From positions 1 through 33,386 of IMG/VR virus record IMGVR_UViG_3300027973_000143: 33,386 bases of DNA. The stretch is one strand, 5' to 3'. Shown piece after piece: positions 1-33,239 of the stretch (positions are counted from its first letter, which is position 1; each line of letters begins with the position of its first letter). The DNA is from a virus. The notes beneath the pieces were generated by a model. The model made no database searches. It saw only the letters and a list, made by a program, of their open reading frames with translations, and was not told the origin of the DNA. The position numbers and the translations under genes are program-made.

Positions 1-621
1 AGCTATTCCAGCACCCTTTACTACTTTTCCCTTTATACTTCCTCGGCGACCCCTTCCGCCACGTCCGCCACGTCCGCCACCACCACCACTCAAAAGTCTA
101 TCAATAATCCCTTCAGTAGCTCCGGAAACTAATGCAGAACCTATACCTGGTCCTTCCTCATTTCCACCACCCCCACCTTTACCGCCACCTTTAGAACCAA
201 GATTATTAATTGCATCTAATAATTTACTATCTCTTAATGCCTGTTCTCTAGCATTTTCTTCATCATATTGAGATTTTGTTTTAGCAGAATCTACTTGATA
301 TCTCAATAATCTAGTTTGTTCAAGAATGTTCGCATTCATCAATTGCAATTCACGAACAACAGCACTATTGAAGTTTGAACTATCAGATGGCCCACTAGAT
401 GAAGCTGATCCTCCGCCACCACCTTTTCCACCACCACTACTTCCAGCGCGAGCGTTTGCACTATTTCTCAAACTTTGAGCAAATGAATATGCCCCAGTTA
501 TACCAGGCATTTCAGATGTTGCAGACCCTCTTATCGCTGCTCCTATTCCAGTAGCTGAACCTCTTGCAGCGTTTCTAGCAGCTTCAGCTAAAGCTGCTGC
601 GTAATTTCCTATTGATGCCAT
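1..621 (-). CDS. Gly-rich, coiled-coil virion protein, N-terminal part (runs off the left edge)
   Basis: An open frame of 207 codons with no stop starts at 621 (ATG, protein begins MASIGNYAAALAEAARNAAR) and leaves the window. It overlaps the stop of the preceding gene as TAATG. Residues 1-60 are Ala/Gly/Ser-rich. Residues 76-85 and 157-166 are Gly runs with Lys. Residues 100-157 are charged and probably helical/coiled-coil (QLMNANILEQTRLLRYQ, then YDEENAREQALRD). Residues 194-200 are a GGRGGR-type basic patch. A tape-measure or baseplate-hub (T4 gp29-like) protein, or a tail-associated lytic protein, would fit a gene following a gp26-family chaperone pair, but no diagnostic domain is visible in this part. 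Being a CDS is well supported; the function is inferred from position only. Confidence 0.7.
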   Translation of the reverse strand, partial: MASIGNYAAALAEAARNAARGSATGIGAAIRGSATSEMPGITGAYSFAQSLRNSANARAGSSGGGKGGGGGSASSSGPSDSSNFNSAVVRELQLMNANILEQTRLLRYQVDSAKTKSQYDEENAREQALRDSKLLDAINNLGSKGGGKGGGGGNEEGPGIGSALVSGATEGIIDRLLSGGGGGRGGRGGRGRRGSIKGKVVKGAGIA

Positions 622-1064
622 TAGCCTCTATCCAAAACAGAATCAGGATTCGAATTAATCGTAGGCTTTTTAACTACTGGTCTTGACGGTTTAACATCAT
701 TGACTGGAGTTACTGTGTCTGTGATTTTTTCTGAACTAAAAGTAGTTTGCTGTTGAATTGGCGATGGGGAACCAATAGTTGTTGGAAATGTACTAGCACC
801 AGCAATCTTTTCTTGTCCACGACTCCAAGCAGCAACTCCAAGAACTGCACCCATTGCTAGATGATACAATCCTGCGCCTTGAAGAGTGATTGGATTCCAT
901 TGACTTGAAACATTACCATGTTGAACTGCTTGAAGCACCGACCATAAAATTGGAAAAATAACAAAATCAGCAATACAAGTTACCATGTATGACCATCCCA
1001 TCATTGGGCGCCATTTGCTATTCATCCAGTCTTCTTTTTTATGGTGATGGTGCTTAGTTGTCAT
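621..1064 (-). CDS. Holin-like small membrane protein
   Basis: 147 aa. A HHHHKK tract lies at residues 5-10. Two hydrophobic segments follow, about 21-47 (GWSYMVTCIADFVIFPILWS) and 61-81 (LQGAGLYHLAMGAVLGVAAW), then RGQEKIAG and a hydrophilic Pro/Thr-rich tail of about 58 residues. The pattern WRPMMGW...D..IFP.LW...LQGAGL.H..MG..LG..AW.RGQEK is what I know from small holins of phages and gene-transfer agents (the GTA-holin-like group). If so, it would insert in the host inner membrane and time lysis. The start at 1064 overlaps the upstream stop as ATGA and has a GAGGA Shine-Dalgarno 5 nt upstream. It lies between a chaperone-like pair and a large virion protein, so a role as a membrane-bound virion or assembly factor is the main alternative. 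Confidence 0.6.
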   Translation of the reverse strand: MTTKHHHHKKEDWMNSKWRPMMGWSYMVTCIADFVIFPILWSVLQAVQHGNVSSQWNPITLQGAGLYHLAMGAVLGVAAWSRGQEKIAGASTFPTTIGSPSPIQQQTTFSSEKITDTVTPVNDVKPSRPVVKKPTINSNPDSVLDRG

Positions 1065-1252
1065 CGATTCCTCGCCTGTTGATTTTGTGCTTCTATCTTG
1101 TTATTTTGTTCTTCAATGTGCTGAGCCAATAACATTAAATATAAATCACGTTCAAAAGGAATCATTTCTTCCAGCACTTCTAAACTGTATTTATGATGCT
1201 GGATAAGAGCAAAATTAGTTTTATAATAATTTGCTAAATTATCATTACCCAT
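1061..1252 (-). CDS. 63-aa tail-assembly chaperone-like ORF in the -1 frame of the gp26-family gene
   Basis: The independent start would be ATG at 1252, overlapping the gp26-family stop as TGATG. A GTG one codon earlier is possible. No Shine-Dalgarno is visible upstream, so translation would rely on coupling or on -1 frameshifting from the gp26-family gene. The frame is open across the slippery tract at 1261-1270. The protein is hydrophilic and largely helical: LANYYKTNFALIQHHKYSL, then a segment rich in Glu and Met (EEMIPFERDLYLMLL) and a Gln/Asn-rich end. The YY..NF...HH.YSL...E.M.P.ER..Y pattern recalls the short T-type halves of tail chaperones and small ORFs that follow gp26 in marine T4-like phages. 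By position it takes the place of T4 gene 51. Its end overlaps the holin-like gene as ATGA. Confidence 0.65.
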   Translation of the reverse strand: MGNDNLANYYKTNFALIQHHKYSLEVLEEMIPFERDLYLMLLAQHIEEQNNKIEAQNQQARNR

Positions 1253-1998
1253 CACAATACGAAAAAATTTGACATTCCTTCTAGTGTGACTTTATCGTGT
1301 GAACCGCAACCACCACAAGTCCATTCAATTTCTTTTTTGACTTTAGGCATTGAAGTGAAGAAGTTATTGATTTTCATGAACTGTTCTTGTGAAAGATTGT
1401 CAATGAACTCAATCAATTCTGTGCGTGTAATGTCTTCAGTTTTGTAAATCTCTTCTTTATCATAAATGTATTCAATACAATTTACAATAGACTCCATTGC
1501 GGCGTCCATTTGATTCTTTGATTTTTTGCTTAGATGTTTTAGACTTGCAGCATCAAGTGTTGGATATTTCATTTTGATCCCAACTTGATTCTCTTCGTCA
1601 ATGACAATATTGTCTGTGTGACCAATTTCTTGATCCACTTCAATCTCGGTTAAATTGATATTTACAAGTGTAGTGTGATCGCATTCAGCGCCCTCATCAT
1701 TGTATCCAGTACGATGACGCATACGCAATTCTACACTTTCACCAATAGACTTTGCTCGTAGATTGATGAAGAAATATTCCAAATCAAATGTTGGCATCTT
1801 TTCCACATCAACTTTATCGATTGCACAATTGTTGATGATTTGTTTGATTGCAACTAGGTTTGCATTTTGATCGTTTGATTCCATAGCCATCAAAAGAATC
1901 TTTTGTTCTTTTACTAGAAAAGGTCTATACTTGACGGTTTGTTTTGTTGACGGCAAAGTCAATTCAAAGATAGGCGAATTAATTTTCGGTAAAGGCAT
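1252..1998 (-). CDS. 26: T4 gp26-family baseplate hub / tail-assembly protein
   Basis: 248 aa from ATG at 1998. I chose this start over an upstream TTG at 2010 because GGAG lies 7 nt before it and the protein then begins MPLPKINSPIFEL. Residues 22-38 (VKYRPFLVKEQKILLMA) are the hallmark of the T4 baseplate gp26 family (PF12322). A CxxC pair at 228-231 (WTCGGCG) lies near the C-terminus, as expected in the family. In T4, gp26 (208 aa) is needed for assembly of the central baseplate hub. Length and motif order fit. The end of the gene carries the tract A AAT TTT TTC just before the stop, and the 63-aa ORF lies in the -1 frame, so a fused product of about 312 aa is possible (see findings). Confidence 0.88.
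   Translation of the reverse strand: MPLPKINSPIFELTLPSTKQTVKYRPFLVKEQKILLMAMESNDQNANLVAIKQIINNCAIDKVDVEKMPTFDLEYFFINLRAKSIGESVELRMRHRTGYNDEGAECDHTTLVNINLTEIEVDQEIGHTDNIVIDEENQVGIKMKYPTLDAASLKHLSKKSKNQMDAAMESIVNCIEYIYDKEEIYKTEDITRTELIEFIDNLSQEQFMKINNFFTSMPKVKKEIEWTCGGCGSHDKVTLEGMSNFFVL
1261..1270 (-). other. Candidate programmed -1 frameshift site (slippery tract)
   Basis: On the minus strand the zero-frame codons read TCA AAT TTT TTC GTA TTG TGA. A AAT TTT and T TTT TTC both match the canonical X XXY YYZ pattern and overlap each other. A -1 slip enters the frame CGT ATT GTG ATG GGT AAT, which is exactly the frame of the downstream 63-aa ORF and is open throughout. Such tracts are not rare in AT-rich DNA; the position, three codons before the stop, is what makes it notable. 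Confidence 0.5.
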
Positions 1999-2023: not shown

Positions 2024-2650
2024 TTAAAGCACTAAAGGTAGTGTGTAATAGCGATAGTTGAGTGTAACAGAGAATCGTTGATAAGAGTTAGTTTCATCCC
2101 AAGAAGCATTCATAGGAGAAATTGCAATTGGATAAATGTCGTGCATTACAAAATTCATAATTACGTTTGCAGTTGCATTTAATTGTTTAACTGAAAGCGT
2201 TACTCCTTTTGCATAGTCTTCATAATATTGAACTAAACCTGAATTTTTATTGTAAGATGTGAAAGAATCTGTTGGTATAGCAACGTCTTTTGTTGTTGTT
2301 ATTATATCATATCCAGCTGGATTGACAATATTGTCAATCCAATTATCAAAAAATAATCTTTCTACTTTATCTTCCGAACATATAATAGACAATTGAATAT
2401 CATTATAAGTTACATCATATGGAAGTTTTAGCGTTGTTCCTCCACCACCAACATCATCATTTGTTGCAAGTGTTTTTCCTGGAAATTCAGCTTTCTCACA
2501 TCTAAATTTAAACGTGTTGTGGATATTAAATGGAAGAAATGATGGTTGTATACCGCCCAGTTCAGCAATAAAATAGTTTGGGCGAACCATAGCTTTGATT
2601 GAATTTTTAAAGTTTGATACGTTAAAAAAATTGTTTACAGTAGTTGCCAT
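2024..2650 (-). CDS. Tail-tube-family protein, probable baseplate tube initiator (gp54-like)
   Basis: 208 aa, starting at 2650 directly after the stop of the upstream gene (TAA ATG), with no strong Shine-Dalgarno. Visible signatures are F+C..AEFPG+.L in residues 45-60 (RCEKAEFPGKTL), a Gly-rich loop, LPYDVTYNDIQLSIICSED, then ERLFFDNWIDNIVNP. This is the core of the T4 gp19 tail-tube family, whose members include the tube monomer, and the fold is shared with the initiators gp48 and gp54. No tail sheath gene is adjacent and it sits with hub genes, so I favour a tube initiator or adaptor at the baseplate over the main tube protein. T4 gp19 is 163 aa and gp54 320 aa; this one is intermediate. 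Confidence 0.68.
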   Translation of the reverse strand: MATTVNNFFNVSNFKNSIKAMVRPNYFIAELGGIQPSFLPFNIHNTFKFRCEKAEFPGKTLATNDDVGGGGTTLKLPYDVTYNDIQLSIICSEDKVERLFFDNWIDNIVNPAGYDIITTTKDVAIPTDSFTSYNKNSGLVQYYEDYAKGVTLSVKQLNATANVIMNFVMHDIYPIAISPMNASWDETNSYQRFSVTLNYRYYTLPLVL

Positions 2651-5283: not shown

Positions 5284-6797
5284 CAATTAATCAAGAACTA
5301 TTCAATGCTTATACTGACATTGATCAAGAAGGCGAATATCGTTTAACAGATATTAAAAATACGACTGCAACTATTGCTGGAGGTACTGTAAACGTTGCGG
5401 ACGTAAGTATTGTAGTTCGAAGTGGAGAAAGAATCACACTTGCTGGCCAATATTCAAACATTTCGATTCATGAAGATATTTTTGCATCATGTATTTCTGG
5501 AACAATCACTATCATCGATTCTGTTGGGTTTTTAGAAACGTTTCGAATCAAGGGCGGAGAACAGATCAATATTAAGATTACAAAGCCAATCACAAATGAT
5601 ATTATCATTTGGAGAGAAGATTTAATCGTACATAGAATTAGCGAATCGTCAGTTGATCCAGTAACACTAGGTTCTACATTTGATTTACAATTTGTTTCCA
5701 GATCACATGTAAACTCTTTAAAGAAATCTCTATTCAAAAGTTATAAGAATATTTCATATAAAGACGCTGCTAAGTTAATTTACTCAGAAATGTCAGTAAA
5801 TGATTTAATCGTAGATGATCCAAATTTAACTCTAACTAAGCCATTCATTTCTACTGGATTGATGCCACACAAAGCAATGGAGTTTCTTTGCAATCGTGCA
5901 TGTAAAAAAGACAAGTTTTTTGTTTTCTTTGAAAGGCTAGTTCCAGTCACAGGAACATATACAGACAACAAACCATTTACAGCTTCACATTACTTCGGAA
6001 GCATAGAGTCTTTAATATACGAAGCAAATAGAAATAGAGTAGAAACAATTTACTTTAATCAAAAATTAAATTTATGGCTTGAATCTGGAGAAATCATTAG
6101 AACTCCTATGTTACAAAGAGATTCTAATTTTAATCATGTTCAAGCGATGCTTCTTGGATTCTATAATACGACAATGACAACTATAGATCCAATCTCCAGA
6201 ACTCATTCGACAAAGAAGTTTGGATATGCAACAGAAGACACAGTAACGAACGATTTCAATCCTTATAAATTGATTGATGATTATAATATTTTTAATGTAT
6301 ATAATGACGCTAAAAATGAAATCCCTGGAAGAAAATTAATTGCTTCATCTATCAATGACACCGCAAGTAGAAGCAGTTGGTTACCTGACAATATTGTTGG
6401 TCAAATTTCAAAGACTTTATTTAAGATTGACGTAGAAATACAAGGCGGGACTAACAATATCGGCATAGGAAATATTGTTAATCTATATTCTCCAAGTCAG
6501 TCTGAAAGATTATCTAATCCTACGAATTCAAATTTAATTCCAAATCGATTAGAGTCTGGAAAGTATTTGATCACTACAGTTGATCATAGAATTCGCCCAG
6601 GAGAATATGTTAAAGGTTTGACATTAAGTAGAGCATCATCACCGATAGATCACAATAAGACCGTAGCTGGAGCTGAAATTGATTTTTCGCTAGATATTGC
6701 AACAATTAGAACAAGTATTGGCGATGTTAAAAAGAAGGCAGATTTAGATAACTCATCCATAGTAGACAACTGGAGAAACAATAGGGTACCATCATGA
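5280..6797 (+). CDS. 27: Baseplate central hub protein, gp27-like
   Basis: 505 aa, against 391 in T4. It is rich in beta strands with no membrane segment. The N-terminal third has SGERITLAGQYSNISIHEDI and an ITIIDSVGFLETFRIKGGE stretch, typical of hub domains. The C-terminus has SGKYLITTVDHRI then KGLTLSRAS, the G.Y.I....H.....Y...L.L.R ending shared by gp27 and P2 gpD-type hub proteins. In T4 three gp27 chains form the torus that carries the gp5 spike. Here the spike gene follows two genes later in the same overlapping series. Overlaps gp53 (ATGA) at its start and the kinase-like gene (ATGA) at its end. Assignment rests on context plus fold-like patterns rather than on a strict motif. Confidence 0.7.
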   Translation: MTINQELFNAYTDIDQEGEYRLTDIKNTTATIAGGTVNVADVSIVVRSGERITLAGQYSNISIHEDIFASCISGTITIIDSVGFLETFRIKGGEQINIKITKPITNDIIIWREDLIVHRISESSVDPVTLGSTFDLQFVSRSHVNSLKKSLFKSYKNISYKDAAKLIYSEMSVNDLIVDDPNLTLTKPFISTGLMPHKAMEFLCNRACKKDKFFVFFERLVPVTGTYTDNKPFTASHYFGSIESLIYEANRNRVETIYFNQKLNLWLESGEIIRTPMLQRDSNFNHVQAMLLGFYNTTMTTIDPISRTHSTKKFGYATEDTVTNDFNPYKLIDDYNIFNVYNDAKNEIPGRKLIASSINDTASRSSWLPDNIVGQISKTLFKIDVEIQGGTNNIGIGNIVNLYSPSQSERLSNPTNSNLIPNRLESGKYLITTVDHRIRPGEYVKGLTLSRASSPIDHNKTVAGAEIDFSLDIATIRTSIGDVKKKADLDNSSIVDNWRNNRVPS

Positions 6798-7753
6798 ATT
6801 CAGTAAAATTATCTTTTTCAGAATTTGTTTTAATGAAAGACTTTCATGCAAATGAACTTTGCGAAAAACAGATTCTTTATAACAACGGAAAGAAATATGG
6901 TCAAATAGTGTTTCTTGCTGGAGGCGCTGGATCTGGTAAAGGATTTGCAATTAAGAACTTTATGCCGGGAAGTGATTTCAAAGTTCGTGATGTTGATGAA
7001 ATGAAACTCGCATTTCAAAAACTCGATTCTCTTCAAAAGTTTACAACTAAAGATTTGTTAGCGAAATATGGTGATAAAATCTCAGATAAAGATAGAGCAA
7101 TTATTGATAGAGAATTGACCGAGAAAGGTCTTGGTATGTCGGATCTTAATTTAAAGACGCCAACTCATGTGTATATTCTTCATGTGCTAGTTCGTGCAAC
7201 TGGTGTTAAAGATAAAACTTTAGACTTGATGCTAGATGGTGCGGAAAAAGGAACACTTCCAAATATCATCTTTGATAGCACTTTCAAAGATGTTACAGAT
7301 ATGACTGATGTTCTACCAAAACTATTTGCTGCTGGGTACCAAGAAAAAGACATTCATGTGACTTGGGTTTTGACGAATTATCAAATCGCAATCAAAAATA
7401 ATAAGTCTAGAGCAAGAGTTGTTCCAGACGATGTTCTATTAGCAACACACAAAGGTGCTGCACAAACAGTCTATGGTTTAGTCACGCATTCGATGCCTAA
7501 AGAAGTTCAAGGCGGCATTTACGTCATTCTAAATAATCCTGAAAATACAGTTGTCATTGTTGATCCTAAGACAAATAAGCCATACAAAGATGTGCATGGA
7601 AATGTTGTTGTCAAAGATTTTAAATACTTGACTTTAAAAGATCCAGGCAAGCCAGCAAAGAAAGAAATTGAAATCAAAAAGCAACTTCTTACATGGATCA
7701 AAGACAACACTCCAGAGGGAGCTGTCGACACTTCAGAATTGGATAAAATGTGA
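6794..7753 (+). CDS. P-loop kinase-like protein (zeta-toxin / polynucleotide-kinase-like) in the hub operon
   Basis: 319 aa. A P-loop lies at residues 43-50 (GGAGSGKG after QIVFLA), but the usual Ser/Thr after Lys is replaced by Gly50-Phe51. Next comes a possible substrate-binding segment VRDVDE (64-69), then a Walker B-like strand NIIFDSTFKD (157-166, Asp161), then WVLTNYQIAIKNNKSRARVVP (191-211) with paired Arg206/Arg208 that looks like a lid, and H219. This order resembles zeta-toxin and polynucleotide-kinase-type P-loop phosphotransferases. The substrate is unknown. Genes of this kind occur among structural genes in marine T4-like phages, but I know of no role. ATGA overlap with the hub gene and a GTG overlap with the next gene place it firmly in the baseplate operon. 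Confidence 0.65.
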   Translation: MNSVKLSFSEFVLMKDFHANELCEKQILYNNGKKYGQIVFLAGGAGSGKGFAIKNFMPGSDFKVRDVDEMKLAFQKLDSLQKFTTKDLLAKYGDKISDKDRAIIDRELTEKGLGMSDLNLKTPTHVYILHVLVRATGVKDKTLDLMLDGAEKGTLPNIIFDSTFKDVTDMTDVLPKLFAAGYQEKDIHVTWVLTNYQIAIKNNKSRARVVPDDVLLATHKGAAQTVYGLVTHSMPKEVQGGIYVILNNPENTVVIVDPKTNKPYKDVHGNVVVKDFKYLTLKDPGKPAKKEIEIKKQLLTWIKDNTPEGAVDTSELDKM

Positions 7754-23696: not shown

Positions 23697-24575
23697 ATGT
23701 CTCTTAGATATTCTGGTTCGTTTTTAACTAATTCTTATACTGGTATAAATCAAGCACCTCCCACTATTGAGTATTTCTTAGTAGCAGGAGGTGGAGGCGG
23801 ATTAGCTGGTAACAGTGGTGCTGGTGGTGGCGCTGGAGGAGTGTTACAAGGAACGGGATTTGTTGTAACTCCAGGAACATCATATACAGTAACTATTGGC
23901 ACTGGCGGAGCTGGTGGAGCTGCCGATAATAGTGGAGATGCTGCTGGAACAAACGGAAGTAATACTACATTTTCATCACTTACATCAGTTGGTGGTGGGC
24001 GGGCTGGTTTTATTACCGGCATTAGCGGAGGATCTGGTGGTGGTGCTGCACACACATCAGGAATTGGTGGAAGTGGAATAACGGGTCAAGGAAATGCTGG
24101 TGGTAATTCACAAACTGGATCTTCTGGCGGTGGTGGAGGAGCAGGATCAGCGGGAGAAGATGGGCCCACACAAAATTCAACCAGTGGTGGTTATATGGGT
24201 TGCGGTGGTGCAGCTCTAGTTTCTACTATTACCGGATATCCAGTTCAATATGCTGGCGGCGGCGGGGGTGCTGGCGATCATCGATATAGAGTTGGCGGCA
24301 AAGGTGGTGGCGGGGGTGCTGGAAATGGAAACACTTGGGGAGATGGAGAAAATGCTGCTTCGAATACTGGCTCTGGTGGCGCTGGTGGTGGATTCGTTTA
24401 TATCGGGGGCACAAATAGATTCTTAGCTGGAGGCAAGGGTGGCAGCGGAATTGTAGTTCTTCGTTATCCATCTTATTATGCTCAAGCAGCATCGACGGTT
24501 GGTGCACCACGAACATATATAGCTGGTGGATATCGAGTTTATATATTTACAAATTCTGGAACAATTACATTCTGA
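23697..24575 (+). CDS. Short Gly-rich fibre/adhesin protein, copy 1
   Basis: 292 aa. After a 23-aa leader, IEYFLVAGGGGG opens a Gly-rich domain (residues about 25-265) made of GGGGG/GGSGGG blocks separated by short variable segments, for example ISGGSGGGAAHTSGIGGSG and AGGGGGAGDHRYRVGGKGGG. It closes with GGSGIVVLRYPS and GGYRVYIFTNSGTITF. The same domain forms the N-terminus of the next gene, so this is the Gly-rich domain standing alone. Gly blocks with variable loops recall the adhesins of T-even gp38 type, where polyglycine II helices carry receptor-binding loops; that likeness is of style, and homology is not shown. Paralogous to the gene at 28539-29447. Confidence 0.78.
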   Translation: MSLRYSGSFLTNSYTGINQAPPTIEYFLVAGGGGGLAGNSGAGGGAGGVLQGTGFVVTPGTSYTVTIGTGGAGGAADNSGDAAGTNGSNTTFSSLTSVGGGRAGFITGISGGSGGGAAHTSGIGGSGITGQGNAGGNSQTGSSGGGGGAGSAGEDGPTQNSTSGGYMGCGGAALVSTITGYPVQYAGGGGGAGDHRYRVGGKGGGGGAGNGNTWGDGENAASNTGSGGAGGGFVYIGGTNRFLAGGKGGSGIVVLRYPSYYAQAASTVGAPRTYIAGGYRVYIFTNSGTITF

Positions 24576-24581
24576 GGTCGT

Positions 24582-27500
24582 ATGGCACAAGGTATATTTT
24601 CGCTAAAGCAAGTTGCACAATCAATCGGTCAAGGATCTTGGACTGGATATATTGTACCAAAATGGGTCGAATATCTTGTAGTCGCAGGAGGTGGTGGTGC
24701 TGAAGGTGGAATTTTCTATGGATCTGGTGGATCTGGTGCTGGAGGAGTTCTTCAAGGAATAGCATCTATAGCACTAGGAACGTCATATTCAGTAACTGTC
24801 GGTTCTGGTGGAGCAGGCACTAAAGATACTACTTCGAGTAGCGGCGGAAATAGTTCTTTTGGATCTATCGTTGCGATTGGTGGTGGTCGAGGGGGTTATG
24901 CTAGCGGCATTAGTGGAGGATCTGGTGGTGGGGGTGGAACTGCTGGACAACCATCGGGAACTATTCGTGCTGGAGCTGGAACTTTTAGTCAAGGAAATCC
25001 TGGTGGAGAAGGTATATATGTTACGGTAGCAGGTGGTGGAGGTGGTGCTGGAGCACCAGGCTCAAAAGGACTCCAATCGGTGGATTATTACACATACCAG
25101 ACTGGAGGCTTAGGTGGCGGTGGCGTTGCAAGTTCTATTACTGGATCGACAACTGCATTTGCTGGTGGTGGAGGTGGAGGAGTCACTGCTGGTGTCGATG
25201 GCGGTGTTATGGGTCGTGGTGGAATAGGTGGAGGTGGACGTGGAGGAAGACAATCGGGTTCTGCTGCAGCAACTGCAAACGGCATATCTGCTATTCAAAG
25301 CACAGGGAGTGGTGGTGGCGGAACTGGCGGATTCAATATAAATTACGGTGGCTCTGGTGGCTCCGGAATGGTAGTAATTCGCTATCTCGGAACTATTCAA
25401 TACTTCACTGGTGGAACTGTAACCTATTCTAATGGATACATTGTTCACACATTCTATTCTTCTGGAACATTTGCTCCAACAACTCCAACACCATTTACAA
25501 CTACAGAATATCAAATTTCTCGTAGTTTAAGATTTACAAGTGCTAATACCACATATCTACAAAGAACTAATACAGTTGCAGGAAATAGAAGAAAATTCAC
25601 ACTTAGTTTTTGGATTAAAAGAGTATATCTTCAAAACGCACCTTGTTTTTTTAGCGCAAGCAACAATTCTCAAAGCTATAGAGATCAATTTTTCTTCACA
25701 ACGACTGGAGAAGTTAGATTTGACATTTATAATAGCGGAACTTTAATACAGCAAATAACAAATGAAACGTTTAATGATATCCATGCTTGGTATCATATTG
25801 TTATCGCGCTTGATACTACACAAGCATCAAACACCAATGGCGTTAAAATATATAAAAATGGTGTACTTTGCACACTACAAAATAATAATTATACACAAAA
25901 TGCTGAAGCACAAGTTAATAATACCGTAGAACAAACTTGGGGTTGGTTACCGACATATACTCCCCAAAGATCAGATATGTATCTTGCTGATGCTTATATG
26001 ATTGATGGTCAACAACTTGATCCAACATATTTTGCAGAAACTAATCCAAACACTGGACAGTGGCAACCAAAAGCATATACTGGATCATATGGAACTAACG
26101 GATACTTTTTAAATTTTTCAGAGTATGCAACAACATCTCAATTGGGTAAAGACTTCTCTGGAAATAACAATAATTTTAGATCATTTAATTTTAGATTGGC
26201 TGCAGATGTCACTAATGATTCGCTCGTAGATGTTCCAACAAGTTGGGGTGTAGACACGGGTCGTGGTGGAGAAGTTCGTGGAAATTATGCTGTACTCAAT
26301 AACTCCGTAGAATATGTCGCTGGCGGTATTAATAATATTCCTTATTTTTATGCTTTAACTAATGGAAATTTAACTTATACAGATACAGATGTTGCTAATA
26401 GCGGGTTAGGTCCACAAACAACAATAATGCCATATTCTGGCAAATGGTATGCTGAATTTACTATTGGTCCAGATACCACTCAATACCCTAGTGCACCTTT
26501 TCCTGGAGCGATTTTTGCTAATATTGCAGTAGCTAGATTGCATCCAATAGGCGCAACTGGAAACACAGGTAGTGCGCCAGCTGTTGTTAGTTATCAAGCG
26601 TCCGACGGACTTATTGTAGATCGAGTCTATAGCACCATTTATTCGGGATTAACCTATACCATAGGTGATACAATATCAATTGCTCTTGATTTAGACAATG
26701 GAAAAGTGTGGTTTGGCAAAAATGGAACTTGGCTAAACAGTGGAAATCCTTCAGCTGGAACAAATCAAATAACTACTATTACTACAGGAGAACCGTGGGG
26801 ATTTGAAGTAGGTTGTGGTGCAAGTGGATATCATGTTCAAATTGATTGTAACTTTGGACAACTTCCTTGGAAATATCAAGCACCAACAGGATTCAAAGCA
26901 CTATGCGTACAAAACCTACCCACACCAACAATAGGTGCGACTAGCGCAACACAAGCTAGTAAGTATTTTAATACTGTACTATATACAGGTAATGGCGGTA
27001 CAAATACAATCACTAATGTAGGATTTCAACCAGATTTTGTTTGGACTAAATCAAGATCAGCAGAGGGATATAATATTCTCAGAGACAGTCTTAGAGGGTC
27101 AACAAAACGTTTGATAAGTGATGGTACTTTTGCTGAATTGACTGATGCGACTTATGGAACTTTTACATCTAGTGGATTTAGTCTCGGGAATAACGTCAAT
27201 CATAATAGTAGTGGAGTTTCTTACATTGCACGAAATTGGTACATTGGTGGAAGCGCAGTAACAAACACTCAAGGTAGCATGAGCGCACAAGTTCTTGCAA
27301 ATCAAACATCAGGAATTAGTATCGTAACATTAACTATTCCAAATAGTAGTGGTAGTCAAACATATGGTCATGGCTTGGGCGCTTCTCCAGGATTTATTTT
27401 TGCTAAAAACCTTGGCAGCACTAGTGATTGGTTTGTTTGGCATAAATCTCTTGGAAACGCAGATATAAGATTAAATAATACTGATGGAGATATTGCATCT

Positions 27501-27944
27501 GGATTCACTTTTAATTCCGTAACTTCGACACTCGTAACTATTGGTGGATCAGATGTTCGCGCATACTGGGGTGGTAACACTAATTGGGTATTTTATAATT
27601 TTGCAGAAATTCCAGGCTTTAGTAGATTTGGCGACTATACTGGAATTGCTAATGCTTTAGGGCCATTTGTATATTGCGGATTCAAACCAAAATTTATAAT
27701 GATAAAAAGATCAACATCCAGCAGTGACGGACCAAACTGGAATATATTTGAAGCTGATAGACCAGATACTCCCAATTGGGGCAATCTTCGCGCAAACTTA
27801 CCGAACACGGAAAGTAATGGTTGGCCTATAGATTTTCTATCAAATGGATTTAAAATAGGATATGCTGGAGAAACAAATTACGCAACAAAACACATTTTCA
27901 TGGCCTTTGCTGAAATGCCATTTAAATATTCAACTGCTCGTTAA
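24582..27944 (+). CDS. Long receptor-binding fibre, Gly-rich + LamG-like + SPRY domains, copy 1
   Basis: 1120 aa. Residues 1-33 form a leader (MAQGIFSLKQVAQSIGQGSW). Gly-rich domain about 34-266, opening VEYLVVAGGGG and closing GGSGMVVIRY, then GGTVTYSNGYIVHTFYSSGT. LamG/concanavalin-like domain about 310-510 (FTLSFWIKR, AWYHIVIALDTTQ, KIYKNG, YMIDGQQLDPTYF). SPRY-like domain about 615-775 (GKWYAEFTI, ISIALDLDNGKVWFGKNGTW, FGQLPWKYQAPTGFKAL). C-terminal region with repeats of P.FVW.K and PGFIFAKN type, ending FAEMPFKYSTAR. LamG and SPRY domains bind sugars or proteins, so a host-recognition role is likely. GAGG 4 nt before ATG overlaps the upstream stop. Paralogue of the gene at 29832-33239. 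Confidence 0.8.
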   Translation: MAQGIFSLKQVAQSIGQGSWTGYIVPKWVEYLVVAGGGGAEGGIFYGSGGSGAGGVLQGIASIALGTSYSVTVGSGGAGTKDTTSSSGGNSSFGSIVAIGGGRGGYASGISGGSGGGGGTAGQPSGTIRAGAGTFSQGNPGGEGIYVTVAGGGGGAGAPGSKGLQSVDYYTYQTGGLGGGGVASSITGSTTAFAGGGGGGVTAGVDGGVMGRGGIGGGGRGGRQSGSAAATANGISAIQSTGSGGGGTGGFNINYGGSGGSGMVVIRYLGTIQYFTGGTVTYSNGYIVHTFYSSGTFAPTTPTPFTTTEYQISRSLRFTSANTTYLQRTNTVAGNRRKFTLSFWIKRVYLQNAPCFFSASNNSQSYRDQFFFTTTGEVRFDIYNSGTLIQQITNETFNDIHAWYHIVIALDTTQASNTNGVKIYKNGVLCTLQNNNYTQNAEAQVNNTVEQTWGWLPTYTPQRSDMYLADAYMIDGQQLDPTYFAETNPNTGQWQPKAYTGSYGTNGYFLNFSEYATTSQLGKDFSGNNNNFRSFNFRLAADVTNDSLVDVPTSWGVDTGRGGEVRGNYAVLNNSVEYVAGGINNIPYFYALTNGNLTYTDTDVANSGLGPQTTIMPYSGKWYAEFTIGPDTTQYPSAPFPGAIFANIAVARLHPIGATGNTGSAPAVVSYQASDGLIVDRVYSTIYSGLTYTIGDTISIALDLDNGKVWFGKNGTWLNSGNPSAGTNQITTITTGEPWGFEVGCGASGYHVQIDCNFGQLPWKYQAPTGFKALCVQNLPTPTIGATSATQASKYFNTVLYTGNGGTNTITNVGFQPDFVWTKSRSAEGYNILRDSLRGSTKRLISDGTFAELTDATYGTFTSSGFSLGNNVNHNSSGVSYIARNWYIGGSAVTNTQGSMSAQVLANQTSGISIVTLTIPNSSGSQTYGHGLGASPGFIFAKNLGSTSDWFVWHKSLGNADIRLNNTDGDIASGFTFNSVTSTLVTIGGSDVRAYWGGNTNWVFYNFAEIPGFSRFGDYTGIANALGPFVYCGFKPKFIMIKRSTSSSDGPNWNIFEADRPDTPNWGNLRANLPNTESNGWPIDFLSNGFKIGYAGETNYATKHIFMAFAEMPFKYSTAR

Positions 27945-27959
27945 AAGGAAACAAGAATC

Positions 27960-28532
27960 ATGTATGCACTAATTCAAAATAATCAAATTACGGAAGTTGG
28001 TGAATTAAGAACATTATTTCCGGGTGAACTTCAACCAAATCATCTGTTTGCAATTCAACGTGGCGCTCTTCCTGTCGTAGACGGAGAGAGAAAAGACGAA
28101 AGATTTTATTGGGTCGCATTTGAGCAATTTGTTATTGAATCTGATAGAGTTCTTAGAGTCTATTCTAATATACCAAAGCAATTAGAAGATATAGAAGCTG
28201 TTGATGTTGATGGTAATCCAGTATATGTTCAAGTTTGGAGTGCATCTGCAAATAAAGGCAAAGGCGCAATGGTGAATAGTACTGAGCGTGCCATTAAAAC
28301 TGGATTGAAAACTCAATACATTTCTCAGTTCAAAGAATCTGCCAATTTACATTTGTCTCCAACCGATTGGATGGTAATTCGTAAAGCTGAACGCAATGTT
28401 GATATTCCTAGCGAAGTTGTTGCTAAAAGAGCAGCTATTTTAGCTGAGTGCGATAGATTGATCGCTGCAGTAACAGCAGCACAAGACATGACAACATTCA
28501 TTGCGGCGGTTCAGTCTTCTAATTGGAATTAA
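27960..28532 (+). CDS. Tail-fibre assembly chaperone-like protein
   Basis: 190 aa. N-terminus MYALIQNNQITEVGELRTLF, then a WVAFEQFVIESDRVLRVYSN beta part. C-terminus LSPTDWMVIRKAERNVDIPS, then EVVAKRAAILAECDRLIAAV. The end TDW.viR..E....+P..v...R..I..........I......W is common in tail-fibre chaperones and in C-terminal domains of fibre-associated proteins (DUF4376-like). Its place directly after a long fibre gene, as T4 gp38 follows gp37, supports a chaperone or trimerisation role. AAAGGA lies 9 nt before ATG. It could alternatively be a minor fibre component. Confidence 0.65.
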   Translation: MYALIQNNQITEVGELRTLFPGELQPNHLFAIQRGALPVVDGERKDERFYWVAFEQFVIESDRVLRVYSNIPKQLEDIEAVDVDGNPVYVQVWSASANKGKGAMVNSTERAIKTGLKTQYISQFKESANLHLSPTDWMVIRKAERNVDIPSEVVAKRAAILAECDRLIAAVTAAQDMTTFIAAVQSSNWN

Positions 28533-28538
28533 TTTGAA

Positions 28539-29447
28539 ATGAGTCAATATCTGGGCGGATTTTTAAGCGCGACATTCAATCCATTCACGGATCAAAAACC
28601 CGCTTCTGTTGAATATCTTATAGTCGGTGGTGGTGGCGGTGGTGCTGGAGGCTATAATGATACCGTAATCGGTAATGGTGGTGGAGGTGGTGGAGGCTTT
28701 TTGACGGGTACTGGATATTTGATCGTTCCAGGAGTAGCTATTGCTATTAGCATTGGCGCTGGAGGTGCATACGGATCACCATCATCAACAGGCTCTTCAT
28801 CTAAAGGTACTCAAGGAAGCGAATCTATTTTTGGCGGACTCATTGCATACGGTGGCGGCTATGGTGGTGGATCTGGTTCTGCTGGAGGTCCGGGCGGATC
28901 TGGTGGTGGATCTGGCGGAAACACAGCTCAAGCCGCAGCAGCAGCAGTAACTGGTCAAGGTAATGTTGGTGGAATATCTTATTTCGGTAATGGATCTGGC
29001 GGCGGCGGTGCTGGTAGCACAGGGAAATCTGGATCAAAGCCTGGTCACGCATATGGCGGAAGTGGAATGGCTTCTTCTATAACTGGATCAAGAGTGTTTT
29101 ATTCTGGCGGTGGCGGTGGAGGAAATTATAATCACGTTTCTACTGATGCTGGAATTCCATATGGTGGAGTCGGTGGCGGCGGTACAGGAGCGTATTGGGG
29201 AGTTGGACTTGGAGTTGGACAAAGATTTGGAACACAAAACCCAAAAGAAGGTGAAGGTAATAGTGGCGGAGGCGGTGGTGGCGGATCAAACACTTCTTAC
29301 GGAGCAAATGGTGGATCTGGTATCGTAGTCATTCGATACTCTCAGAATTTAGCACCAGCAGCATCAACTACTGGCGGTCCTCAGATACTATATAATAACG
29401 GATATCGAGTATATATTTGGACCAGTAGTGGTTCAATTACTTTCTAA
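28539..29447 (+). CDS. Short Gly-rich fibre/adhesin protein, copy 2
   Basis: 302 aa. Begins MSQYLGGFLSATFNPFTDQK; VEYLIVGGGGGGAGG opens the Gly-rich domain (about residues 27-265), with blocks such as SGSAGGPGGSGGGSGG, an Ala run (AQAAAAAV) and GEGNSGGGGGGGSN. It closes GGSGIVVIRYSQ and NNGYRVYIWTSSGSITF, nearly the same ending as copy 1 (GGYRVYIFTNSGTITF), whereas the variable segments between Gly blocks differ. This fits a shared scaffold with diverged loops. Weak ribosome site; 6 nt follow the chaperone-like gene. The role is inferred as a host-binding tip or stand-alone adhesin. Confidence 0.78.
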   Translation: MSQYLGGFLSATFNPFTDQKPASVEYLIVGGGGGGAGGYNDTVIGNGGGGGGGFLTGTGYLIVPGVAIAISIGAGGAYGSPSSTGSSSKGTQGSESIFGGLIAYGGGYGGGSGSAGGPGGSGGGSGGNTAQAAAAAVTGQGNVGGISYFGNGSGGGGAGSTGKSGSKPGHAYGGSGMASSITGSRVFYSGGGGGGNYNHVSTDAGIPYGGVGGGGTGAYWGVGLGVGQRFGTQNPKEGEGNSGGGGGGGSNTSYGANGGSGIVVIRYSQNLAPAASTTGGPQILYNNGYRVYIWTSSGSITF

Positions 29448-29465
29448 AAAGAGGGAGACTTTAAC

Positions 29466-29825
29466 ATGGCGCATTTTGCAAAAGTAGAAAACGGTGTAGT
29501 CACACAGGTGATCGTGATTGACCAAGAGACACTCAACACAGGGCATTGGGGAGACCCATCATCTTGGATTCAAACCAGCTACAACACACAAGCTGGACAA
29601 CATCCGGAAGGAAGACCTCTTCGTAAAAATTATGCTGGTATAGGATTTACTTATGACAGCGTAAGAGATGCTTTTATTCCACCAAAACCACATGCTTCTT
29701 GGTTGCTTGATGAAGCAACTTGTTTATGGAATCCTCCAGTAGCAAGACCGCAAGACGGAAAAATGTATGTATGGGATGAAGAAACAACTTCTTGGATTGA
29801 ACCAGAAACGACAGTATCGGAGTAA
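29466..29825 (+). CDS. MAHFAK-family small phage protein (fibre-region accessory)
   Basis: 119 aa. MAHFAKVENGVVTQVIVIDQ, then RKNYAGIGFTYDSVRDAFIP, PKPHASWLLDEATCLWNPP and DGKMYVWDEETTSWIE. I recognise this family from many marine phages of T4-like and T7-like type, where it lies in virion or fibre regions; its function is unknown to me. Trp-rich repeats of the kind W.LDE.....W.PP and Y.WDE.T..W suggest a small structural or chaperone-like domain. A strong GAGGGAGA site at 29452-29459 suggests high expression. It lies between the second short Gly-rich gene and the second long fibre gene, and there is no counterpart at the same position in the first cassette. Confidence 0.72.
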   Translation: MAHFAKVENGVVTQVIVIDQETLNTGHWGDPSSWIQTSYNTQAGQHPEGRPLRKNYAGIGFTYDSVRDAFIPPKPHASWLLDEATCLWNPPVARPQDGKMYVWDEETTSWIEPETTVSE

Positions 29826-29831
29826 ATAGAT

Positions 29832-32800
29832 ATGCCTCAATATGGTGGAATTTGGACGCTGAGTCAAGTCGCTCAAGCAGTAAAAAATAATACTTGGGAA
29901 GGTGTTCCTCCAACCAGCATTGAGTATCTTGTAGTCGCTGGTGGTGGGGGCAGCGGTGCAGGTATTGATACTGGTGGTAATGGTGGTGGTGGAGCTGGAG
30001 GCTTTCGTCAAGATTTCACAAGCGTATCACCAGGAGTTTCTTATTATATTACAGTGGGTGGCGGAGGCGCTGGTTCATCGACTAACGGTGTCGCTGGAAC
30101 AACTGGAACAAATTCTAGTTTTGGAGAATTTGGTGCAGGATCAGCAGCAATCATCTCACTTGGTGGTGGGGGAGGCGGATCAGCTGCATCTTCTTATGCT
30201 GGAGTTCCTGGAATTGGTGGATCTGGTGGCGGTGGTTGGGGATTAGATAGTTCTAGCTATCCACAATATTCTGGCTCAGCCGGAACAAACGAACAGGGAA
30301 ATCGAGGCGGCGACGGATATAAAAATAACAATGGATATGGTGCAGGTGGAGGCGGTGGAGGTGCTGGATCTCCAGGAGGACATGCAAATGCATATGTTGC
30401 TGGCGGCAACGGCGGAATGGGTGCAGCTTCAGACATTACTGGTGTTCGAACAATGTACGCCGGTGGTGGCGGAGGCGGAGTTGATTCTCGCAATAGTGTA
30501 GGATATCAAGATATTAGTTCTACTATCATATATACGCCAGCAGGTGGCTTAGGCGGTGGTGGTAATGGTGCGTACGGCGGCACTACTGCGCCAACGGCAG
30601 GATCACCAAACACTGGAGGTGGAGCTGGTGGAGGCGCTATTGGATATTTGGGATCTAAATCTGGAGGAAGCGGTATTGTAGTAGTTCGCTATCCTGGAAA
30701 CATCCAATACTACACTGGTGGAACTGTTGCATACAATAACGGATACATTTCGCACACGTTCTATTCATCTGGAACATTAGCTTCTACTACACCAACACTC
30801 TTTACAAATCCAGATTATCAGATTTCACGTTCTTTGAGGTTTAACAGTGCTGATGGCCCTATTCTAGAACGTGCAGGTAGTGCTGGTGGAAATCGCCAAA
30901 CTTGGACTTGGAGCGGTTGGGTAAAACGCTCAAAACTTAACTCTAGTAATACTAATCCCCCTGTTTTTTTTGGTGCTAGTGATAGATCAGCTGGATCAGC
31001 ACTCTTACAGTTTGGACTATATGGTTCTGACAGTGGTATAGATTGTATAAATTTTAATGAACAATCGGGCGGAAGTTATAATATAACTACTATAGCCAAG
31101 TTTAGGGATATGTCTGCATGGTATCACATAGTTTGTGCTTATGATACTACACAATCTACGGCTAGTGATAGAGTAAAAATTTATGTAAATGGTGTTCTAC
31201 AAGCAATTACTAGTGGATCAACATATCCAACACAAAATACTAATGGATATGTTAACTATTCTGCATTCCCTTACTTTATAGGTGCGTATGATACCGGCAC
31301 TACCAACTACACTACCAATGGCTACATAACTGAGGTAAATTTTATAGATGGTCAACAACTAGGTCCAGGTAGTTTTGGATATGTTGATCCAAATACTGGA
31401 GTTTGGTCGCCATCAAGATATGTTGGTAGTTACGGGACTAGGGGATTCTATCTAAACTTTGCTGATAATTCAAATATTACTGCTGGTACTCTAGGCAAAG
31501 ACTTGTCTGGTAATGCAAATAATTTTACACCAACTAACCTTAGTGTCACGGCTGGTGTAGGCAATGATAGTTTTGTAGACTCACCAACAAACTACGGTAC
31601 AGACACTGGTGCTGGTGGTGAAGTGCGTGGTAATTATGCTACTTTGAATAGATTAGATCTACCGGGAAGCAATAACACTCTTGCTAATGGAAATTTAGAC
31701 AACTCAATGTCTGTAGGCGGACAATACGGAACTGCCGTGTCATCCATTTCAGTAAGTTCTGGAAAATGGTATGCAGAATTTACAATGGCTGGAACTACAG
31801 GTTTCATTGGAGTTTCTACTTCTGCCTATCAAAATACCATAGCTAATAACGAAGGTTACAATGGAAAGTTTTGGTATACTACAAACGGATATGCATATTA
31901 TTCCGGTGATGGAAACAAATACAGATCAAATACCAATGCTGCATATGGCGCTACATATACAACAGGTGACATAATTGGCGTAGCATTAGATTTAGATGCA
32001 GGAACACTTGTATTTTATAAAAATGGAGCAAGTCAGGGAACTGCATATACAGGATTAAGTGGTACATTCACTATAAATGCAACTTCCGTCAGTGGCGTAA
32101 CAATTTCAGCCAATTTTGGTCAACGTCCATTTGCATATACTGCGCCTAGTGGCTACAAAGCACTATGCACACAGAATTTACCAACCCCAACTATCGGATC
32201 AACTAGTGCGACATTAGCTACTAAGTTTATGGGAGTTGACTCTTGGTCTGCTACGGATAGTACAGCTCGTTCAATTAATACTGGTGTTGATATGGCCACT
32301 TATGGTGGTCTTTTGTGGATTAAAAATAGACCCATTACTCTCGATCACTATTTAGTAGATACGGTTCGAGGTTTCACAAAATATTTTGCAACTAATAAGA
32401 CCGATGCTGAAAACACAGGCGACATTCAATTAGTTTCAACTCCTTATGGTGTTACTTTTAATACTGGTTCAGCATCACTTAATCAAGCAGCACAGGGGTA
32501 TACCTGGGTCGGTTGGAATTGGGCTGCAGGTGGTGCTGCAGTAACTAATACTACTGGATCAATCTCAGCACAAGTTAGTGCTAACCCTTTGTCTGGATTT
32601 AGTATTGTAACTTATACTGGTACAGGTTCTAATGCTACTGTGGGACATGGGTTAGGTGTTGCGCCAAGTATGTTTATTGTCAAGAGGAGAAGTGATAGTG
32701 AAAACTGGTGTACTTATCATCAATCACTTGGGGCGACAAAGGCTTTATTTTTTAACCTTACGGATGCAGAAACAACAAATTCCGTGTTTTTTAATAATAC

Positions 32801-33239
32801 AGCCCCAACTTCTAGTGTATTTTCAATCGGAACAAACCCTTCTATAAACTCAAATACTAGCACTTATGTTGCCTACTGTTGGGCAGAAGTTCCAGGATTT
32901 AGTAGAATTAGTAGTTATACTGGTAACGGTAGTACGGATGGTCCGTTTGTATACTGTGGATTTAGACCACGCTGGATAATGTTTAAACGTACAACTGCAA
33001 CAGAAAATTGGACAATTTTTGACACTGTTCGTGATCCCTATAATATTGCTGGACGTAGAATACATCCTAGTTTAAATTCTGCAGAAACTGATGATACTGC
33101 CGGTACAACTATTATTGCTGATATTTTATCTAATGGATTTAAAATAAAGGGTACTGGAGTAAATATTAATGGTAGTGGAGATACATATATTTTTGCAGCT
33201 TTTGCTGAATCACCATTCAAATACTCAAGAGCACGATAA
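29832..33239 (+). CDS. Long receptor-binding fibre, Gly-rich + LamG-like + SPRY domains, copy 2
   Basis: 1135 aa, same layout as the gene at 24582-27944. Leader MPQYGGIWTLSQVAQAVKNN; Gly-rich domain about 34-287 (IEYLVVAGGGGSGAG to GGSGIVVVRY), then GGTVAYNNGYISHTFYSSGT. LamG-like domain about 325-545 (WTWSGWVKRS, AWYHIVCAYDTTQ, IDGQQLGPG). SPRY-like domain about 640-778 (GKWYAEFTMAG, GVALDLDAGTLVFYKNG, FGQRPFAYTAPSGYKAL). C-terminal region with GVAPSMFIVKRRS and FRPRWIMFKRT, ending FAESPFKYSRAR. It differs from copy 1 mainly in loops and in the region between the LamG and SPRY domains. CGGAG lies 9 nt before ATG. Confidence 0.8.
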   Translation: MPQYGGIWTLSQVAQAVKNNTWEGVPPTSIEYLVVAGGGGSGAGIDTGGNGGGGAGGFRQDFTSVSPGVSYYITVGGGGAGSSTNGVAGTTGTNSSFGEFGAGSAAIISLGGGGGGSAASSYAGVPGIGGSGGGGWGLDSSSYPQYSGSAGTNEQGNRGGDGYKNNNGYGAGGGGGGAGSPGGHANAYVAGGNGGMGAASDITGVRTMYAGGGGGGVDSRNSVGYQDISSTIIYTPAGGLGGGGNGAYGGTTAPTAGSPNTGGGAGGGAIGYLGSKSGGSGIVVVRYPGNIQYYTGGTVAYNNGYISHTFYSSGTLASTTPTLFTNPDYQISRSLRFNSADGPILERAGSAGGNRQTWTWSGWVKRSKLNSSNTNPPVFFGASDRSAGSALLQFGLYGSDSGIDCINFNEQSGGSYNITTIAKFRDMSAWYHIVCAYDTTQSTASDRVKIYVNGVLQAITSGSTYPTQNTNGYVNYSAFPYFIGAYDTGTTNYTTNGYITEVNFIDGQQLGPGSFGYVDPNTGVWSPSRYVGSYGTRGFYLNFADNSNITAGTLGKDLSGNANNFTPTNLSVTAGVGNDSFVDSPTNYGTDTGAGGEVRGNYATLNRLDLPGSNNTLANGNLDNSMSVGGQYGTAVSSISVSSGKWYAEFTMAGTTGFIGVSTSAYQNTIANNEGYNGKFWYTTNGYAYYSGDGNKYRSNTNAAYGATYTTGDIIGVALDLDAGTLVFYKNGASQGTAYTGLSGTFTINATSVSGVTISANFGQRPFAYTAPSGYKALCTQNLPTPTIGSTSATLATKFMGVDSWSATDSTARSINTGVDMATYGGLLWIKNRPITLDHYLVDTVRGFTKYFATNKTDAENTGDIQLVSTPYGVTFNTGSASLNQAAQGYTWVGWNWAAGGAAVTNTTGSISAQVSANPLSGFSIVTYTGTGSNATVGHGLGVAPSMFIVKRRSDSENWCTYHQSLGATKALFFNLTDAETTNSVFFNNTAPTSSVFSIGTNPSINSNTSTYVAYCWAEVPGFSRISSYTGNGSTDGPFVYCGFRPRWIMFKRTTATENWTIFDTVRDPYNIAGRRIHPSLNSAETDDTAGTTIIADILSNGFKIKGTGVNINGSGDTYIFAAFAESPFKYSRAR

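Follow-up and report, generated by a model that had tools for sequence, protein, structure and literature searches.

The window analysed here, the whole 33,386-nt stretch of the viral record IMGVR_UViG_3300027973_000143, carries on its minus strand a gp26-family gene whose stop codon overlaps the start of a 63-aa ORF in another frame, and the question raised by this locus is whether these are two genes or a single gene that is read across the stop by a -1 ribosomal frameshift. A sequence-only reading had proposed the latter, with the products acting as a chaperone pair like G and GT of lambda. The comparisons of sequences reported below indicate that the locus very probably encodes a tail-assembly-chaperone pair by means of a -1 slip at T TTT TTC, probably helped by an internal Shine–Dalgarno (SD)-like sequence.

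Organization of the gp26 junction

The gp26-family gene (positions 1255..1998, minus strand), regarded here as the short chaperone form (TAC-N, lambda G-like), starts with ATG, encodes 248 aa and ends at a TGA stop codon (1254-1252). Its product matched PF12322 (T4_baseplate) over residues 9-246 (1.2e-63, 215 bits against a curated cut-off of 24.5) and the profile phrog_150 (1.5e-69). The 3' end of the gene reads ...GGA ATG TCA AAT TTT TTC GTA TTG TGA and holds the two overlapping heptamers on which the sequence-only reading was built, A AAT TTT (1264..1270, minus strand) and T TTT TTC (1261..1267, minus strand), both in the gp26 frame. As slip sites the two fared differently among relatives: T TTT TTC was conserved, whereas A AAT TTT was not and is probably incidental.

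The small ORF (1061..1252, minus strand; 63 aa plus stop) runs from its only ATG (1252-1250) to a last codon at 1066-1064 and a stop codon at 1063-1061, in frame -1 relative to gp26. This frame is open from a point 37 nt before the gp26 stop and across the slip site, and the ATG overlaps the gp26 stop as TGATG, with a GTG one codon upstream of it, so that the layout of the second ORF was as originally described. The statement that the ORF has no SD sequence held for its ATG, but a single SD-like stretch, AGAAGGA (1276..1282, minus strand), is present 23 nt upstream of the ATG and 8 nt 5' of T TTT TTC.

Were the ribosome to slip after the second Phe, gp26 residues 1-246 would be joined to RIV and the 63 aa, and the computed product of 312 aa agrees with the length of about 312 aa first suggested. 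The segment read in frame -1 after the slip (FFRIV plus 63 aa; 1064..1267, minus strand), termed here the T domain, appears by profile comparison to be a homologue of the T4 gp51 C-terminus. The small ORF matched phrog_634 ('baseplate hub assembly catalyst', gp51; 3.6e-24) at profile positions 60-120 of 121, covering the second half of the profile only. A further match, to the final 43 positions of phrog_150 (the gp26 profile), suggests that this family includes some fusions. Judged by these matches, the 63-aa ORF is the short gp51 of cyanophages and the C-terminal (T) domain of a predicted gp26-gp51 fusion.

Conservation of the slip site among relatives

A single heptamer at this position proves nothing, because the genes of the window contain 45 in-frame heptamers of the X XXY YYZ type. 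Related loci were therefore collected by three IMG/VR scans, which used search motifs outside the junction, and from phage records; this gave 250 loci with both gp26 and a T domain, from which a non-redundant set of 160 representatives (<80 % identical) was drawn. The T domain was in frame -1 with an in-frame T TTT TTN within the overlap in 249 of the 250 loci, so that the slippery tract and the -1 overlap are conserved among related T4-like phages. No sequence-level contradiction of the proposed frameshift appeared among these relatives; the only exception, locus L123, carries an indel elsewhere in gp26 (at about 1330) with its junction intact, and this indel is probably an assembly or sequencing error in a metagenomic contig.

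All 160 representatives had NNT TTT TTN at the junction. The first Phe codon was TTT in every one of them (background 71 %), as was a T in the base before it (160/160, background 77 %); under an assumption of independence, counts like these two would arise with probabilities near 1e-24 and 4e-19, values that are optimistic given shared ancestry. The codon preceding the slip Phe pair varied (AAT, AGT, GAT, TCT, GCT, GGT or TTT), with the third-position T alone constant, and the heptamer was T TTT TTY nearly everywhere, with a TTA ending in a few cases. The residue following the Phe pair was Arg in frame -1 in 119 of the 160 representatives; in frame 0 it was variable (Gly, Val, Ala, Glu, stop and others). 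In several phages, namely Aeromonas phage 65 (L085), Cronobacter LPCS28 (L091), Atu_ph04 (L090) and ORM_20 (L110), the -1 T domain is present in the DNA but appears in the public records either without annotation as a gene or as a wrong fragment only.

A different type of junction was found in Ackermannviridae and a related Vibrio phage (L087, L088 and L111), in which a T-like domain follows gp26 in frame -1 with no canonical heptamer, the junctions reading ATT TTC ATT TAA or CTT TTC AAG TAA. In SeF6a there is no ATG, GTG or TTG near the junction. Any slippage in the Ackermannviridae would have to rely on a weaker site or on some other mechanism, because the full heptamer is absent (ATT TTC/CTT TTC).

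An SD-like element upstream of the heptamer

At the position of AGAAGGA many relatives carry GGAGGG (codons GAG GGN), ending 8-9 nt before the heptamer, and the spacing falls inside the window of 6-17 nt that was used in a search for SD stimulators (PMC4066793). Among the 125 representatives having Glu at this site, 79 used GAG, compared with 22 % elsewhere in the same genes. Pairing with the anti-SD was stronger than under synonymous resampling (z about -19, 160 representatives), whereas three control windows treated in the same way gave z between -3 and +3; about a third of representatives reached -9 kcal/mol or better, against 4 % expected. Across the relatives, the SD-like element thus appears to be selected beyond codon usage and is a probable frameshift stimulator, acting via pairing with 16S rRNA. 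The pairing in the window itself (-5.7) is not above the prediction from its codon usage, and a stimulator in this particular phage is for that reason plausible rather than shown.

When the 60 nt that follow the heptamer were folded for 38 representatives, no common downstream structure emerged (mean z -0.64), and a downstream stimulatory hairpin, considered as a candidate, was rejected on these figures and on the lack of a shared fold.

Collinearity with gp51 and lineages with a separate gene 51

The predicted 312-aa product aligned in a single piece with full-length gp51 from Aeromonas phages Riv-10 and ZHF and from Escherichia phage EcS1. In hhalign comparisons the gp26 profile matched the N-terminal part of T4-type gp51 (E=3e-9) and the T profile matched its C-terminal part (E=2e-9); on the basis of these alignments, T4 gp51 is a gp26-like domain followed by a T domain. 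Genes 26 and 51 of T4 are separate and divergently transcribed. The heptamer was absent from gene 26 in all seven phages examined that have a separate long gp51 (T4, FL31, ABTNLPp2, EnC07, Henu6, ZHF and Thanatos-1), with Phe-Phe kept as TTC TTT or TTC TTC in T4, FL31, ABTNLPp2 and EnC07. No T ORF was found after gene 26 in the six of these phages with downstream sequence, the next gene being gp25; the ABTNLPp2 record stops at the gp26 stop and was checked for the heptamer alone. The Phe pair therefore survives without a slip, and the slip site survives only alongside a -1 T domain.

Both states are held within the Straboviridae, where the -1 layout occurs in Schizotequatrovirus-type Vibrio phages, in Aeromonas phage 65 and in Cronobacter LPCS28. 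A frameshift at T TTT TTY, aided by an SD-like element in many lineages, was probably the ancestral route to the chaperone pair across T4-like phages. T4 would then be derived, its long form having become a gene of its own (gp51) and its gene 26 having lost the slippery codons.

Alternative explanations for the junction

The same arrangement could arise by translational coupling, in which ribosomes reinitiate at the ATG overlapping TGA and release a free 63-aa protein with no fusion. The TGATG overlap is present in the window and in its near relatives, and the -1 frame alone cannot decide the matter, because a stop/start overlap of the TGATG or TAATG type always sets the second ORF in that frame. 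Start codons are more informative: 89 of the 160 representatives had no ATG, GTG or TTG in the -1 ORF as far as residue 10 of the T domain, and independent initiation at the usual codons is thus impossible in about half of the representatives, where no such codon exists. Coupling also leaves unexplained why the -1 peptide FFR is conserved upstream of any start, why the codons are kept as TTT rather than TTC and why the homologous gp51 of other phages is a full fusion, and the SD-like element, about 23 nt from the ATG, is too far away to serve it. As the sole explanation coupling is accordingly improbable, although in the window reinitiation at the overlapping ATG could yield a free 63-aa protein in addition.

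An almost identical product would be expected from transcriptional slippage, in which RNA polymerase would insert an extra base at the T run, leaving the ribosome to read the second ORF in its normal frame; a homopolymer of six T, or of seven as in some relatives, is in principle able to slip. The run is, however, not longer than this and is mostly bounded by C (122 of 160 representatives end in TTC), its phase relative to the codons is fixed, and the element upstream is of a kind that acts on ribosomes; slippage of the polymerase is rated as less probable even than coupling. The least credible reading, with hardly any weight left to it, is that Phe-Phe reflects a constraint on the gp26 protein only, the heptamer and the frame of the T domain being incidental. 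The pair is strongly conserved in frame 0, but it is encoded by the non-slippery TTC TTT or TTC TTC where gp51 is separate, and Phe-Phe pairs elsewhere in the same genes read NNT TTT TTY in only 9 of 50 cases (38 representatives), so that this reading was already refuted by the codon-level comparison. By comparison, a programmed -1 frameshift that fuses the small ORF to gp26 is strongly supported by the conserved heptamer, the missing starts and the collinearity with gp51.

Predicted fold of gp26

The AlphaFold model of gp26 (pLDDT 86) was compared with solved structures using VIA-align, which gave 3fgx (7.8), 3klu (7.5), 2ob9 (7.4) and 5ir0 (5.5) as the top four, the next value being 2.6. These fold matches span gp26 residues ~1-95 and are modest (Z <8). 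Of these structures, 3klu is YqbN and 2ob9 is the HK97 tail assembly chaperone, and 3fgx, 3klu and 2ob9 are all treated as tail assembly chaperones in PMC9603447. Foldseek alone gave no significant match of the gp26 model to the PDB, and a profile search of PDB sequences found nothing relevant. The modelled gp26 nevertheless resembles the tail-assembly-chaperone fold, the gap between the top four Z values and the next one being telling, and this chaperone-like fold, together with the collinearity with gp51, supports the proposal that gp26 and the small ORF form a G/GT-like pair.

Neighbouring genes and the tape-measure question

Directly upstream of gp26 is the tail tube gene (2024..2650, minus strand; phrog_45, 2.2e-31), whose product is, by analogy with lambda gpV, a candidate partner of the T domain. 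Downstream, a gene for a small holin-like membrane protein (621..1064, minus strand; phrog_3427 holin, 7.7e-07; PF11351 GTA_holin_3TM, 2.6e-06, above cut-off) stands between the T domain and a large Gly-rich gene. A small ORF occupies the same place in Melnitz-3 and phiM19.

The Gly-rich gene, which the sequence-only reading had put forward as the tape-measure-like client of the chaperones, is cut by the window edge, with its first 207 codons at 1..621 (minus strand). In near relatives it has ~1,500 codons, the full gene encoding 1,504 aa in L098 (1809-6323) and 1,523 aa in L099. The gene of the window matched phrog_6922 (unknown function) only, and searches against PHROGs, Pfam and NCBIfam returned no named tape-measure family; the genes in the corresponding downstream position in S-SM2 and phiM19 gave weak matches to tape-measure families (2.2e-05 and 1.8e-05, respectively). 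The product has two hydrophobic stretches, which are not decisive for tape-measure identity. That this gene encodes the tape measure is a reasonable guess, and it is a guess because the window's gene matches only a family of unknown function, its equivalents in S-SM2 and phiM19 match weakly and the holin-like gene sets it apart from the chaperone gene.

The length of the Gly/Ala-rich gene differs among close relatives (open frames of 1,415-1,793 aa), and a middle part of the protein, around residues 380-510, resembles a lysozyme-type domain by eye, with no profile match. Elsewhere in the window, the gene at 6794-7753 (plus strand), inside the run of baseplate genes, has a P-loop-like motif (FLAGGAGSGKG) and looks kinase/zeta-toxin-like by eye. 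In the region 23697-33239 (plus strand) lie the genes of four Gly-rich tail proteins, two of them long (about 1,120-1,135 aa) and two shorter (about 300 aa), alternating with small genes. The glycine-rich repeats at the N-termini of the four are similar, and the region looks like a tandem duplication of adhesin-type tail genes.

Proposed mechanism

One reading start would serve both chaperone forms. The majority of ribosomes would read gp26 to its TGA and make the short form (248 aa), and a minority would move back one base on T TTT TTC and pass the stop in frame -1, making a long form of 312 aa that carries the gp51-type T domain. The slip would probably be aided by 16S rRNA pairing with the SD-like sequence that ends 8-9 nt before the heptamer. 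If lambda is a guide, the short form would coat the tape-measure protein, the T domain would recruit tail tube subunits and the ratio of short to long form would matter.

Comparison with known systems

The -1 frameshift of tail chaperones is textbook knowledge for lambda-like phages. The lambda slip site is G GGA AAG, and the long form of the lambda type makes up a few per cent of the product, binds the tape measure and the tube and is absent from virions. Xu, Hendrix & Duda reportedly described the lambda G/GT chaperone pair and many analogues in 2004. The locus studied here shares with lambda G/GT a short form and a predicted -1-extended long form with the slip a few codons before the stop, a second ORF without a reliable start of its own, a chaperone-like fold of the short form as modelled, and a location that follows directly on the tail tube gene and precedes a large gene downstream. 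Unlike lambda, it has T TTT TTC as the slip site, with an SD-like element upstream in gp26, and gp26 is about twice the length of typical chaperone N domains. The SD-like element recalls E. coli dnaX, whose slippery heptamer is preceded at about 10 nt by an internal SD-like sequence. Upstream SD stimulators have been described as a class (PMC4066793); dnaX differs in having A AAA AAG and a downstream hairpin, whereas the gp26 junction is without a conserved downstream structure.

A parallel is provided by the tail chaperone of the Vandenendeviridae/Andersonviridae, for which the relevant part of PMC12846349 likewise describes a conserved -1 shift, placed where the short gene ends and using the T-rich motif GTTTTT. 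That chaperone belongs to another family and another phage group, and no SD-like element is reported in that part of the article. The same source refers to poly-T slip signals as known for the TAC-N genes of T4-like phages, and separate short and long chaperone genes in some T4-like phages are mentioned in PMC10885494. Both articles cite Vladimirov, Gautam & Davidson 2022 (Virology 566:9) for T4 gp26/gp51 as the T4-like chaperones TAC-N/TAC-NC, and, going by these citations, priority for the T4-like frameshift itself probably belongs to that work. The present analysis adds its scale and a test at the level of codons, and it brings in the missing start codons, the internal SD and the finding that T4-type phages have lost the heptamer and the T ORF together.

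A review (PMC5009743) described the G-T frameshift as widely conserved 'except T4', whereas the frameshift was conserved in most of the T4-like lineages sampled here. A pair of genes now annotated as 'baseplate hub' and 'baseplate hub assembly catalyst' (or left as an unannotated gap) would become a single recoded gene, in T4-like phages of marine, freshwater and enteric origin that number at least in the hundreds. The gp51 of cyanophages has been reported to be ~20 % of the T4 length, and that of cyanophages and vibriophages to be missing the first ~200 residues, in a study that makes no mention of frameshifting (Sullivan et al., 2010; PMC3037559); the apparent truncation in cyanophages can be explained if the missing N-terminal part is supplied by gp26 via the frameshift. 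The T4 proteins gp26 and gp51, puzzling in hub assembly, would thereby be linked directly to the tail-length machinery of lambda. T4 shares with the locus described here the two protein forms, its gp26 being homologous to the short form and its gp51 collinear with the predicted fusion, but differs in having two divergently transcribed genes, no heptamer and no T ORF after gene 26. Slippage in most lineages and two separate genes in T4 offer a natural comparison of the ways in which the ratio of short to long form is set.
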